Source: Mesoterricola silvestris
GTDB lineage: Bacteria > Acidobacteriota > Holophagae > Holophagales > Holophagaceae
Reading direction: 5' to 3'
DNA length: 64,000 nucleotides
Assembly: GCF_030295405.1 (NCBI RefSeq)
Contig: NZ_AP027080.1
Span: 496,001-560,000 of the forward strand
The position numbers and the translations under genes are program-made. A model generated the notes under the pieces. It was given only the letters and a program-made list of their open reading frames with translations, did not search any database and was not told where the DNA came from. Below, in pieces: positions 22,341 to 27,586 of the stretch (positions are counted from its first letter, which is position 1; each line of letters starts with the position of its first letter).

Positions 22341-22870
22341 GGCCAAGAGGGGGTACGTGTCCCGGACCTTCGCCACTGATTCGCTGACGCAGGCAAGCTG
22401 CGTCAGCGGAGGGCCCACGGCGGGAGGTTGAGCGGAAGTGTTGGCACACTCCGGCTTCGATGATGATTGCGGGCATAGGGAGAGGGGGGCTCTCCTGGGG
22501 GGCCTATGTTCCGGCGACACGCTTCAAGTGATCCGGGATGGAGGCCGGTTCGCGCCGACGCTGATCACCTTCGGCTTCATGGCTGGGGAGGTCGGGGCGA
22601 AATCGAGCGTGCGAAAAATAGAAGTGTGTGAGGGGTGCGGACTGATCAACGTCGGCGCGAACGGGTCTCCATCCCGGATCACTTGAAGCGTGTCGCCGGG
22701 ACATAGGCCCCCCCGGGGAGCCCGGGTTCCCACCGGGCCCGGACCGTCCATCGAAGCCGGAGTGTGGCAACACTTCCCCCTAACCTCCCGCCTTGGGCCC
22801 TCCGCTGACGCAGCTTGTCTGCGGCAGCGAATCCCTAGCGCAGGTCCGGGACACGTGCGCCCGCTTGGAA
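22341..22870. repeat. Large imperfect palindrome (two ~228-bp inverted arms)
   Basis: The left arm (22341-22568) and the reverse complement of the right arm (22642-22870) align almost end to end at roughly 80-85 % identity, around a loop of about 73 bases. Landmarks in both arms are ACGTGTCCCGGACCT, GGGCCCA.GGCGGGAGGTT, CACACTCCGGCTTCGATG, GGGGGGCCTATGT and TTCGCGCCGACG. Each arm also holds a nested hairpin: CGCTGACGCAG (22382-22392) with CTGCGTCAGCG (22398-22408), perfect over 11 bp, and the matching one at 22803-22829 with one mismatch. It fills the 596-base gap between adenine deaminase and the cytochrome operon, ending 5 bases before the latter's last stop. No transposase is present. Short open frames inside it look non-coding. 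Confidence 0.85.
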
Positions 22871-22875
22871 AACGT

Positions 22876-23763
22876 CTACCGATGGCAGGTGGCGCAGGAT
22901 TCCAGGCCCTTGGCGGGGCTGCGAAGGTAGACGGCGTCCTCGCCGCCGAAGGCCTTCCGCTCGGCTTCGGGGATGCGCGGCCAGTAGAGGGAGAAGGCCT
23001 GGGTGCCGTCGGCTTTGGCCTCCCGCATGTAGAGGGGGCCGGGGGAGCCGTTGGCATCGGTGCTCATGACGGCGTAGGCGCCGATGGGCAGGGGCTTTCC
23101 GGCGGCCAGGGCGTCGCTGCCGGAGGCGGTGACCCAGGTGCGTGCCAGGCGGCCGCCGTGGGCGCGGCTGCGGAAGGGGGCGGGGCGCAGGGGTTCCAGG
23201 CTGGCGTAGTCCAGGGCCCGGACGGGGAGCTCGGCTTCGGCGTCGTTCTTCCGGGCGTCGATGGCTTCCTGGGCGGCCTTGTTGGTCTCGGCGTTGCCGA
23301 AGACCATGACCCCGCCCAGGCGGCCCACGTAGCCCCAGGTTCCGGCCCAGAGGATGGTGCCCGCCAGGCACGCGGTGGTCCACCGCATGCGGTCCGGCTC
23401 GTGGTAGGACTTGCGCAGCAGGAGGAGGTTCAGGACCCCCACCCCGAACCCGGCCAGGGCGGTGAGCTCGTGGAGGCGCAGCACCCGCTGGAGGGCCTGC
23501 CCCCGGGAGGCCACCACGGGCACATAGCCGTCCGACGGGATGAGGCTCAGGAGCCGGGCCCAGTAGAAGCCGCTCAGCAGCGTGAGCAGGCTGCCCCCCA
23601 GGGCCAGGAGGCCCACCCGGAAGGCCATCCGCCGCCAGGTCTGGGGGTACCGGGAGCGGTGGGCGGCCACCAGCATGATGGGCAGGACCACCACCATGCC
23701 CAGGGGCACGTGCACCAGGGCCGGGTGTTCCCGGGAGAACAGCTCGAAGAGCGCCGCACCCAT
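22876..23763 (-). CDS. Four-helix membrane protein with C-terminal c-type heme motif
   Basis: A 295-residue protein. The first half has four hydrophobic helices (LVHVPLGMVVVLPIMLVAAH; FRVGLLALGGSLLTLLSGFYW; LTALAGFGVGVLNLLLL; TACLAGTILWAGTWGYV) with histidines near the ends of the helices, resembling DUF2231-type membrane cytochrome domains. The second half is soluble and ends with SCATCHR, a CxxCH heme site only one residue from the C-terminus. It is probably an inner-membrane electron carrier. It is the last gene of the operon with the beta-barrel, monoheme and multiheme cytochrome genes; the gap to the preceding gene is 2 bases. The exact family is not certain. Confidence 0.75.
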   Translation of the reverse strand: MGAALFELFSREHPALVHVPLGMVVVLPIMLVAAHRSRYPQTWRRMAFRVGLLALGGSLLTLLSGFYWARLLSLIPSDGYVPVVASRGQALQRVLRLHELTALAGFGVGVLNLLLLRKSYHEPDRMRWTTACLAGTILWAGTWGYVGRLGGVMVFGNAETNKAAQEAIDARKNDAEAELPVRALDYASLEPLRPAPFRSRAHGGRLARTWVTASGSDALAAGKPLPIGAYAVMSTDANGSPGPLYMREAKADGTQAFSLYWPRIPEAERKAFGGEDAVYLRSPAKGLESCATCHR

Positions 23764-23765
23764 GG

Positions 23766-24548
23766 CTAGAAGGTCCGGGCGACGTTGAACCCCAGGGCCC
23801 ACTGGCCCGTGGAGCGCGCCCCGCCTCCGTAGTCCCCCGACAGGACCTGGTTGGTGGTGGTGCCCGTGGCGTTCGTGGCCACGAGGGTGAACCGGTGCTT
23901 GAAGGTCTTGTAGGTGAACCCCGCGGAATAGCCGGGCCTGAAGGTCCGGTCGACCTTCGAGGGGCGCGGGTAGTACTCGCCCACGAACCCGAGCTTGTCC
24001 GTGATGTCCACGCGCAGCCCCGCCCCGGCCGTGAAGACCGGCTTCTTCTGGGTGGTGGTGCGGCTGAGGTAGGTGGGCACCACGGACAGGACCGCGAAAT
24101 CCCCGAGGAAGAATTCCGTGGGCAGCTGGTAGGCCCCGCCGTTGATGCCCACCGTGCCCACGGGGGTCTCGGCGCGCTTGACTACCTCGTCGAAGCGCTC
24201 GGCGCGGAGCGACATGCGCACGTAGTCGCCGTTGAGGATGCGCTGCTGGAGGGCGAAGGTGAAGGTCTTGTTGTCGGCGGTGCGGTACAGGATGACGTTC
24301 AGGCCCTTGACGGGCTTGATCCCGAAGTCCACCCCCAGCCCGGGGTAGGCGTAGCCGTCCAGGCCGTAGGCGTCCTTGCCGTGGCCCGAGGCGGGGGTGG
24401 AGAACCGGTGGGTGAAGGCGATCCCCATGTCCCAGAACTGCATCATGTCGCCCGTGGGCAGATTGACGGCCAGCGGGTATTCCGAGGACTCGGCCAGGAG
24501 GAGGGCCGGGGCCAGGCACAGGGCGGCGGTTCGCAGGTTGGCGATCAT
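23766..24548 (-). CDS. DUF5777-type outer-membrane beta-barrel
   Basis: A 260-residue protein with a signal peptide (MIANLRTAALCLAPALLLAES) and continuous amphipathic beta-strands. It shows the DUF5777 pattern PTGDMMQFWDMGIAFTHRFS, YPGLGVDFGIKPVKGLNVILYRT and GYSAGFTYKTFKHRFTLVATN, and ends with ALGFNVARTF (terminal aromatic residue, as in barrel proteins). Genes of this family are often found beside cytochromes. In this operon it would be the outer-membrane pore partner of the surface multiheme cytochrome; that role is inference. Confidence 0.8.
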   Translation of the reverse strand: MIANLRTAALCLAPALLLAESSEYPLAVNLPTGDMMQFWDMGIAFTHRFSTPASGHGKDAYGLDGYAYPGLGVDFGIKPVKGLNVILYRTADNKTFTFALQQRILNGDYVRMSLRAERFDEVVKRAETPVGTVGINGGAYQLPTEFFLGDFAVLSVVPTYLSRTTTQKKPVFTAGAGLRVDITDKLGFVGEYYPRPSKVDRTFRPGYSAGFTYKTFKHRFTLVATNATGTTTNQVLSGDYGGGARSTGQWALGFNVARTF

Positions 24549-24560
24549 GGGAACTCCTGG

Positions 24561-24914
24561 TCAGTGCCGGGCGCCGAAGGGCCGGATGATATCGGTGACC
24601 ATCTTCTGGGCCTGCTCGGGGGTCAGCTTGCCCTTGAAGGCGGGCATCTTCTCCTTGCCTTCCAGGGTGATGCGCACCCAGTCGGAATCCTTCTTGCGGC
24701 CCGCCTTGCGGCTGTCGGTGAAATCGAAGCCATTGTCGGGCAGGGGGCTGCCGGCATTGTCGCGGCCGTTGCCGTTCACCCCGTGGCACCGGGCGCAAAC
24801 ATCCAGCCAGTACTTGGGATAGTCCCCCCCGAAGGGCGGGGGCTCCTTCTTGGGCTGGGCCGCCAGGGTGGCGCCGCAGAGCAGGACGGCAAGGGCGAGG
24901 CGTGGAATGGACAT
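24561..24914 (-). CDS. Small monoheme c-type cytochrome
   Basis: A 117-residue periplasmic cytochrome. The signal peptide (MSIPRLALAVLLCGATLAAQ) is followed by one heme site CARCH (40-44) and a plausible axial Met in KEKMPAFKGKLT (about residue 89), i.e. the class-I cytochrome c layout. It lies between the multiheme cytochrome gene and the DUF5777 gene with gaps of 20 and 12 bases, consistent with a soluble shuttle between inner and outer membrane. Confidence 0.9.
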   Translation of the reverse strand: MSIPRLALAVLLCGATLAAQPKKEPPPFGGDYPKYWLDVCARCHGVNGNGRDNAGSPLPDNGFDFTDSRKAGRKKDSDWVRITLEGKEKMPAFKGKLTPEQAQKMVTDIIRPFGARH

Positions 24915-24934
24915 GATCTCTCCGAGGTGGGGGC

Positions 24935-27586
24935 CTACCAGGCCCGGTTGTTGTGGTTCTCGCCGTGGCAGGTGAGGGTGCAGGTGCGGTTGGCGGCGTT
25001 GTAGACGGAACGGCTGCCCAGGTACTGGATGGTGTCCCCGGCCGGGCCTTCCATGGCGGGCGTGTTGAGGTGGGTGAAGTGGGCCAGGGCTCCGGGCGTG
25101 CCGTTGGCCATGCCGTGGCAGTCGGTGCATTGGGCGGCCACCTCCGACCCCAGGTGCTTGCCGTGCTGGCCCGAATAGTAGCTGTTGCTCTCGGGCACGC
25201 CCAGGGCCGTGCCCCGGGAATGGCAGGCGCGGCATCCCGCGTCCCCGGAGGTGCCGGCGGAGTCCAGGGTCCCGGTCCGCCAATTGGGCGAGGGCAGGGC
25301 CCCGTGGCAGCTCACGTTGGAGCAGGTGAGGGTGGCGGGCGCGAACGCCGCGGCGCCGGCCTTGGCGTTGTAGGTGCCCGAGAACCCCGTGGGCGCCGGG
25401 GGAACCCGCAGCGCGTCCGCGCCGGGGCGGGCGTTGGCGTGGGCGTAGTGGCTCTGGGTCCCCGCATCGGAGTTGGTGTGGCAGACCCCGCACTGGGCGG
25501 CCACCCCCGCGAGGGCATTGTGCCTCGCGTGGGCCCCGGCCACGTCGGGGAAGGCCGAGCCCGCCGGAGGATTGCCGTGGCAGGAGGCGCAGTTGGCCAC
25601 CGTGAGCGGGGACCCCGCGGTGTGGCAGACGGTGCACAGGGGCGCCGTGGCCACCGGCGAACTCCCGGTGACGGCGTGGCAGCTGGAGCAGGTGGCGTTG
25701 AAGGCCGTCGCGGTGCCGGCGCCGGTGTGCCCCGTGCCCAGGTAGGGCACCGGGTGGCTGGGCCCGCCCTTCCAGGAGGAGGCGGTGTGGGCGTGGCCGT
25801 GGCAGGTGACGGTGCAGTTCTGGTTGGCCTTGTCGTAGACGTTGGCGGTGCTGCCCAGCAGGAGGATGGTGTCGCCGGCGGGCCCCTCCATCTGCGGGGT
25901 GTCCAGGTGGGCGAAGTGGTTGGCGGCGCCCGGGGTGCCGTTGGTCATGCTGTGGCAGTCGGTGCACAGGGCCCCCACGCCCGCGGCCAGGTGGAAGCCG
26001 TGGAGGCCGGACCAGGCGGCATTGTTCTCGGGGGTGGCCTGGGCGGTGCCCACCTGGTGGCACTGGCGGCAGCCTGCGTCCGTGTTCACCGCGATGGTGC
26101 CCTGGCCCCAGGCCGGCGTGGGGATGCCGCCGTGGCAGCTCACGCTGGAGCAGGTGAGCACGGTGGGATCCAGGGCCGCCGTTCCGGCCTTGGCGTTGAA
26201 GTTCCCCAGGAGCGCCACCGGGGCGGGCCGGGTGGCGGTGCCCATGCCGGGGCGCGCATTGGCGCGGTTGTAGTGCTCCAGGGAGCCGGAGTCGAAGGTG
26301 TTGTGGCAGGTGGAGCACAGGCCCGTCACTCCGGCCAGGGTCTCGTGGGCGGCGTGGGAGCCCGCGATATCCGGGAAGGCCGTGCCCGCGGGGGGCTTGC
26401 CGTGGCAGGAGGCGCAGGAGGTCAGGACCAGGGGCGAGCCGGCCTGGTGGCAGGTGGCGCAGGTGGGGGCGCCCGCCAGGGGCGAGGTGCCGGTGACGGC
26501 GTGGCAGGTGGCGCAGCCCGCGTTGAAGGTGGCCTGGGTGGCGGCGGTGTGGAGGGACCCCTGGAAGGGCACCGGATGGTCGGGTTGACCGGGGCCGTTG
26601 GCGTGGCAGGCCACGGCGTTGGAGGAGCCCGCGAAGCAGCTGGGGGCCGCGGGAAGGGGGGCGGTGCGGCCCTTGGTGTAGTCGTGGCAGACCGGGCAGG
26701 CCAGGTCCCGGTTCTGGGCGTTGCGGTGGGAGGGCGTGTAGCCCGGGAAGGTGTCCACGGGCGCGGCGCTCCACACGGTGGAATGGGCCCCCGCCGCGGT
26801 GTGGCAGGAATCGCAGGCCGTGGAGACGGAGCCCCCGCCGAAGGAGGTCGTGCCGGGAGTCCCGTGGCAGGACTGGCAGTAGAGGAGGTTCTGCTTGGCC
26901 TGGAAGCCGTGGAAGGCGCTGCTGGTGGCCTCCCGCCACGCCGCCCCCAGGGGGTGGGGCGCCGCGGCCGGCCCGTGGCACATCGTGTTGTTGAAGCAGG
27001 AGGGCACGGCCCCGGCGGCGGCGGATTGGGCCGGGTGGCCCGGGGGATTGCTGGCGGAGCCCGCCAGGTGGCACCGGGCGCAGAGGGCGGCGTTGGAGGG
27101 ATCGGTGGTGCTGTGGGTGAGCCCGGCCGGATCGTTCCAGGGCCGGGCCGGGTGCGGGGCCGGCACGCCGTGGCAGCTGGCGCAGGACACGGCGGAACCC
27201 CCTCCGGCGAAGTCGGCGCCGTGGCAGGTGGCGCAGGATGCCAGGCCGCCGCCGCTGGCGTCCTGGGCGGATTTCGCCCGGAGGCCGTGGGAGGCCGCGA
27301 GGCTGAAGCCCGGCACCGTTCCATGGTGGCAGGCCGCCGTCATGCAGTTGGGGATCCCGCTGCCCACCTTCAGGACGGTCATCTCGTGGCAGGTCCTGCA
27401 CTGGTCCAGGCCGGCCAGGGCCTGGCCCGGGTGCACATCCAGCCAGCCCTTGGGGTGGTGGTTCCCCTTGGAGGCTCTGGATCCCCCGCCACAGCCCACG
27501 AGGAGGGCCGCCGGCAGGAGGAGGCCCAGGGAGAGCCCCCGCCGGAATGATTTAAACATAACTGCCAAGCGCGAGGATCGCCCCAT
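24935..27586 (-). CDS. Outer-surface multiheme (about 26-heme) c-type cytochrome lipoprotein
   Basis: An 883-residue lipoprotein with signal peptide and lipobox LLVGC (Cys32; Cys23 if the second Met is used). I count 19 CxxCH sites, three CxxxxCH sites (CMTAACH, CSSVSCH, CSNVSCH), two CxxxCH sites (CTVTCH, CTLTCH) and two looser C...CH pairs (CFNNTMCH and one with nine residues between). That makes up to 26 hemes. The C-terminal half consists of two copies of a unit of about 250 residues (CATCHAVTG ... MEGPAGDTI ... TCHG). The CxxxxCH...CxxCH pattern is known from Geobacter-type cytochromes. It probably carries electrons at the cell surface. AAGGAG upstream supports the first Met. It is the first gene of a four-gene operon. 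Confidence 0.93.
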   Translation of the reverse strand: MGRSSRLAVMFKSFRRGLSLGLLLPAALLVGCGGGSRASKGNHHPKGWLDVHPGQALAGLDQCRTCHEMTVLKVGSGIPNCMTAACHHGTVPGFSLAASHGLRAKSAQDASGGGLASCATCHGADFAGGGSAVSCASCHGVPAPHPARPWNDPAGLTHSTTDPSNAALCARCHLAGSASNPPGHPAQSAAAGAVPSCFNNTMCHGPAAAPHPLGAAWREATSSAFHGFQAKQNLLYCQSCHGTPGTTSFGGGSVSTACDSCHTAAGAHSTVWSAAPVDTFPGYTPSHRNAQNRDLACPVCHDYTKGRTAPLPAAPSCFAGSSNAVACHANGPGQPDHPVPFQGSLHTAATQATFNAGCATCHAVTGTSPLAGAPTCATCHQAGSPLVLTSCASCHGKPPAGTAFPDIAGSHAAHETLAGVTGLCSTCHNTFDSGSLEHYNRANARPGMGTATRPAPVALLGNFNAKAGTAALDPTVLTCSSVSCHGGIPTPAWGQGTIAVNTDAGCRQCHQVGTAQATPENNAAWSGLHGFHLAAGVGALCTDCHSMTNGTPGAANHFAHLDTPQMEGPAGDTILLLGSTANVYDKANQNCTVTCHGHAHTASSWKGGPSHPVPYLGTGHTGAGTATAFNATCSSCHAVTGSSPVATAPLCTVCHTAGSPLTVANCASCHGNPPAGSAFPDVAGAHARHNALAGVAAQCGVCHTNSDAGTQSHYAHANARPGADALRVPPAPTGFSGTYNAKAGAAAFAPATLTCSNVSCHGALPSPNWRTGTLDSAGTSGDAGCRACHSRGTALGVPESNSYYSGQHGKHLGSEVAAQCTDCHGMANGTPGALAHFTHLNTPAMEGPAGDTIQYLGSRSVYNAANRTCTLTCHGENHNNRAW

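Follow-up and report, generated by a model that had tools for sequence, protein, structure and literature searches.

The porin-cytochrome conduits described so far employ a multiheme periplasmic cytochrome (PMC6148476), and the barrels have 16 strands in Cyc2 and 26 in MtrB (PMC8406198). Two reports treat Geothrix as an electrogen equipped with genes for extracellular electron transfer (PMC12285243, PMC6344600); the second also reports homologs of OmbB-OmaB-OmcB together with new, unnamed putative conduits. Homologs of extEFG are expressed by a Holophaga (PMC11748539). The 64,000-nt stretch of DNA analysed here (the window) belongs to a soil-type Acidobacteriota genome made up of a single contig of 4.99 Mb; Geothrix and several Holophagaceae MAGs are among its relatives. 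It contains a compact operon of four genes, A to D, which we are slightly inclined to regard as a family-specific route by which electrons leave the inner membrane and travel through the envelope, from D to B and on to C and A.

Gene order and conservation of the operon

All four genes lie on the minus strand (22876–27559), separated by gaps of 20, 12 and 2 bases; an earlier note on this DNA had described them as same-strand genes spaced by 2–20 bases. Pfam and NCBIfam matches, as well as motif counts, agree with the kinds and order of genes given there. In the order of transcription, from A to D, they are:

24935..27559, minus strand: gene A, lipoprotein multiheme c-type cytochrome, 874 aa (TIGR01904 and Cytochrome_C7 family)
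24561..24914, minus strand: gene B, monoheme cytochrome c with signal peptide, 117 aa (PF13442, 3.7e-9)
23766..24548, minus strand: gene C, DUF5777 outer-membrane beta-barrel, 260 aa, with C-terminal Phe (PF19089, 2.6e-22)
22876..23763, minus strand: gene D, DUF2231 four-helix membrane protein with a C-terminal cytochrome P460-like heme domain, 295 aa

The lipoprotein signal of A (MFKSFRRGLSLGLLLPAALLVG followed by C) is obtained when the ATG at 27559 is taken as the start; position 27586, previously given as the operon end, is an in-frame ATG upstream of this lipoprotein start. Rfam searches found no RNA in the window. Around the operon, no promoter-like match was found, and terminators were at chance level. 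In Geothrix (L115, L116 and L118), sensor-kinase-like and response-regulator-like genes are divergent from A, and none were seen at the window locus.

On the 3′ side of D lies an imperfect palindrome (22343–22868; about 500 bp). Its arm has 61 matches in the same genome, mostly as inverted pairs, the arms being about 76–79% alike; 15 of the 20 pairs read sit between convergent genes, usually 10–50 bases from the stops. This family is nearly missing from 30 relatives (one match in G004 and three in G005).

The conserved co-occurrence of the four genes, which the earlier note had proposed as a check, is borne out. Contiguous, same-strand A-B-C-D units were found at 24 distinct loci in Holophagaceae and Geothrix (28 rows, four of which repeat a contig already counted; the remaining loci are cut by contig ends or gene calls), a recurrence that led to chance adjacency being rejected. 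A query with D of named genomes gave 26 loci, all of them in Holophagaceae, in Geothrix or in MAGs labelled simply as Acidobacteria. The flanks vary, with alanyl-tRNA synthetase-like and purH-like genes in Geothrix and adenosine-deaminase-like and methyltransferase-like genes in the window. The A-B-C-D order being kept while the flanks change, the four genes form a functional unit. Among 396 Acidobacteriota genomes, the D family was limited to the Holophagaceae/Geothrix family, bar one marginal match. Across 77 genomes of this family, the operon-type barrel and the A module mostly co-occurred, and A modules were also found without the barrel; both were missing from several genomes of the genus Geothrix, a point that counts against a conduit.

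The modular lipoprotein A and its counterparts

The heme-type sites of A comprise, by motif count, 19 CXXCH, two CX3CH, three CX4CH, one CX5CH and one CX9CH, that is, 25 CX2-5CH sites plus the CX9CH, those other than CXXCH being candidate heme sites only. The figure of up to 26 c-type heme sites proposed earlier can thus be kept as 19 CXXCH plus six or seven candidate variants. A further 34 histidines lie outside CH motifs and are available as second ligands. The score of A against TIGR01904 (CxxxxCH/CxxCH domain) was 35.6 bits, above the NCBIfam cut-off of 27; no sequence relative of A was found in the PDB. The protein is divided into a head and two modules:

26585..27559, minus strand: head of A, lipoprotein signal and nine CX2-5CH sites (pattern 242225222), plus the CX9CH site
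25760..26584, minus strand: octaheme module 1 of A (pattern 22224223)
24938..25759, minus strand: octaheme module 2 of A (pattern 22224223)

The two modules share 158 of 274 residues, with a Smith-Waterman score of 872 compared with 197 ± 20 for control shuffles that hold Cys and His fixed. For the A genes of relatives, open frames were extended past the gene calls before hemes were counted, and lengths are open-frame lengths. A constant head (242225222) is followed in these proteins by one to five copies of 2222422(3/4), the totals being 17, 25, 33, 41 and 49 sites for one, two, three, four and five modules, respectively; the A protein of the window has two. In other Geothrix A proteins the modules are partial or altered, giving 18, 20 or 30 sites, and one copy with 39 sites reads as a head duplication. 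The genus Geothrix also contains giant A paralogs with 71, 54 and 54 heme sites (L192 6939–14009, L193 7060–13296 and L194 6962–12262, respectively), beside which no barrel was recognised.

A-like proteins were also found outside the operon. In four sister genomes, an A-like lipoprotein with 31 sites comes after a porin of ∼455 aa and a pentaheme lipoprotein (L195, L196, L202 and L201, the porin being only partly called in the last). The porin is 44% identical to that of the window's own genome, where a cluster (L185 8106–13564, about 4221.6–4227.1 kb) contains a porin, a pentaheme lipoprotein, an A-head-like protein of 196 aa (score 286 versus 118 ± 18) and an OmcA/MtrC-family decaheme protein (TIGR03507, 2.3e-138). 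These arrangements resemble the ExtEFG layout of Geobacter, namely porin, pentaheme lipoprotein and larger cytochrome, and also the reported swapping of the exposed cytochrome (PMC6148476). The A-like cytochrome in the large-cytochrome slot counts in favour of a conduit. However, this slot is that of ExtG, which is predicted to be periplasmic in Geobacter (PMC6148476), so synteny does not fix the side on which A lies. With its lipobox and 25–26 heme sites, A is a candidate for the outer-membrane lipoprotein with redox cofactors expected of a porin-cytochrome system.

A might instead face the periplasm, serving as a lipid-anchored, periplasm-spanning wire or electron store; C would then be a mere anchor or a channel for small redox compounds, and electrons would go to an OmcA/MtrC-type conduit encoded elsewhere without crossing the outer membrane here. 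The periplasmic prediction for ExtG, the synteny counterpart of the A-like proteins, is in line with this, as are the separate porin-cytochrome cluster of the same genome and the lack of an obvious heme path over the membrane in a monoheme B and a small C. Nevertheless, conservation of C goes with that of A at all four-gene loci, and the cluster just described pairs its A-head-like lipoprotein with an OmcA/MtrC protein, a member of a surface family. A periplasmic A is considered unlikely, though far from negligible.

The barrel C, its partner B and the membrane protein D

The match of C to DUF5777 (PF19089; 79.7 bits) is well above the gathering cut-off of 23.1 and, together with its signal peptide, C-terminal Phe and barrel model, indicates integral outer-membrane beta-strands. 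The AF2 model, built with 17 sequences, has about 12 strands at low confidence (pLDDT 64), and its best fold matches were OmpG and KdgM-type porins. No sequence relative of C was found in the PDB, and a literature search found no paper that mentions DUF5777. The domain is present in 88 of 297 Acidobacteriota genomes. When 20 loci from outside Holophagaceae were read, a heme-site protein was fused to DUF5777 or encoded just upstream of it in about 15, and a cupredoxin-like protein in two. An N-terminal heme-site domain is fused to the barrel in L153, L154, L155, L156 and L168, and a cupredoxin in L167; Pfam confirms these domains for L153 and L156 (cytochrome or PSCyt1) and for L167 (cupredoxin), the heme part in L154, L155 and L168 being recognised by motif only. 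A single CXXCH is present in each of the 15 B orthologs that were aligned. Judging from the one-heme or copper domains fused or adjacent to DUF5777 across the phylum, B is tied to C, and this tie of DUF5777 to one-heme domains also counts for a conduit. The window's own genome encodes a second trio consisting of a monoheme cytochrome, a small DUF2231 protein and a DUF5777 protein, without a multiheme protein (L025 4994–6605, about 1368.9–1370.5 kb) and close to genes for Rieske and CHRD proteins. This suggests that the core unit is a cytochrome plus DUF2231 plus DUF5777, with A, and on D a P460-like tail, apparently added in the window operon.

A one-heme domain together with a barrel, the two being fused in other Acidobacteriota, is also the layout of Cyc2 (PMC8406198). 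B and C could in principle be a split Cyc2 that oxidises a dissolved donor, e.g. Fe(II), at the outer membrane, with electrons running inwards to D. This is rather improbable: no match to a Cyc2-type barrel family was seen in the operon, C is smaller than the barrel of Cyc2, a large multiheme lipoprotein is encoded alongside, and the relatives have been studied as reducers.

D can be divided as follows:

23299..23763, minus strand: membrane domain of D, aa 1–155, with conserved His13, His18 and His98
22879..23199, minus strand: cytochrome P460-like domain of D, aa 189–295
22882..22896, minus strand: CXXCH motif of D (CATCH), aa 290–294

In the AF2 model of D (pLDDT 79), four long helices are accompanied by a mixed domain at the C-terminus, and the protein ends in CATCHR, as expected from the earlier description of a four-helix inner-membrane protein with a terminal heme site. 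Its DUF2231-like nature, also proposed there, holds by a narrow score (PF09990, 7.5e-6; 26.5 bits for a cut-off of 26.4); 21 of 22 D orthologs matched DUF2231 at E ≤ 1. Cytochrome P460 (PF16694) was matched by 12 of the 22 orthologs, the best at 4.2e-4, the window D itself being unmatched. Foldseek gave zero PDB matches for D at E ≤ 0.001, which counts against a conduit; a cytochrome c′ beta structure appeared in the fold search below significance. The conserved His13, His18 and His98 could bind heme b or quinol. A literature search combining DUF2231 and cytochrome found only unrelated work. Solitary paralogs of D (DUF2231-like with a CXXCH tail; L101 9314–10321 and L102–L120) occur in most Holophagaceae, including genomes without the operon. 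They were rejected as members of a second operon, as they stand alone, often near a gmhA-like gene.

The P460 match among the orthologs and the weak resemblance to cytochrome c′ beta would also fit detoxification, with the P460-like domain binding or converting a small molecule such as NO or hydroxylamine while A supplies or stores electrons. We regard this as very improbable, since the domain match is weak, 17–49 heme sites far exceed the need of a detoxification enzyme, and the P460-type paralog without A to C in most genomes of the family indicates that the operon form has another purpose.

Proposed electron route and comparison with known systems

In the outward route favoured here, D would take electrons at the inner membrane, perhaps by oxidising quinol, with the conserved histidines as ligands, and pass them on to its own P460-like heme domain. 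B would ferry them over the periplasm and dock on C, the small barrel. They would be received, through or alongside C, by A, a lipoprotein wire made up of its head and octaheme modules and probably placed outside, which would deliver them at or beyond the outer membrane to an acceptor, perhaps the Fe(III) or humics suggested in the earlier note. The conduit reading of the earlier note stands as regards the conserved operon and a redox chain of inner-membrane, periplasmic, barrel and lipoprotein parts. The classical geometry of a multiheme cytochrome inside a large barrel is not directly transferable to a monoheme B and a small barrel model; with about 12 strands in C (pLDDT 64), no heme chain is visible across the membrane. 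The operon encodes no multiheme periplasmic cytochrome such as characterises described conduits (PMC6148476), B and D having one CXXCH each. Given this and the small barrel, the operon, which most likely works like a porin-cytochrome conduit, is regarded as a variant and not as a member of that family. More tentatively, it may represent a conduit class of its own: instead of a multiheme cytochrome inside a large porin it would use a one-heme cytochrome with a small DUF5777 barrel, its lipoprotein would grow by octaheme steps from 17 to 49 sites, and a new DUF2231-P460 quinol oxidase would act as driver.

New here are the head and one to five octaheme modules of A, the P460 match of the D tail, the link between DUF5777 and redox domains and the A-like proteins in an ExtEFG-like cluster. 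DUF5777 and DUF2231, both of unknown function, are given a position in envelope electron transfer that can be tested, and the parts list for extracellular electron transfer is extended in Acidobacteriota, where conduits are poorly known. The natural length variants of one multiheme wire (17–49 sites) would allow heme-chain length to be tested against electron transfer.

Among known systems, the CxxxxCH/CxxCH cytochromes (TIGR01904) are matched by A above the model cut-off; A differs from them in its modular head and its one to five octaheme repeats within an operon. The putative porin-cytochrome clusters of Geothrix MAGs (He et al. 2019, PMC6344600) come from the same genus-level group and were found via gene organisation, the genes being unnamed in the available part of that report. 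Cyc2 shares the combination of one heme domain and one barrel, fused in some other Acidobacteriota. It is, however, a monoheme cytochrome fused to a 16-strand porin, whereas B and C are separate genes, the barrel is of the DUF5777 type with about 12 strands in a low-confidence model, and a large multiheme protein is added. With Shewanella MtrCAB, the operon shares a proposed inner-to-outer electron path via a barrel and multiheme cytochromes, but no match to the MtrA, MtrB or MtrC families occurs in it, and the 26 strands of MtrB compare with about 12 modelled for C. Finally, ombB-omaB-omcB and extEFG of Geobacter likewise combine in one cluster genes for a barrel, for a cytochrome of the periplasm and for a multiheme lipoprotein cytochrome, and in relatives A-like proteins stand where an ExtEFG-like cluster has its large cytochrome. 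Unlike the Geobacter conduits, the window operon has a monoheme periplasmic partner and a smaller barrel of another family, includes the inner-membrane protein D, and builds its large cytochrome from repeated octaheme modules.
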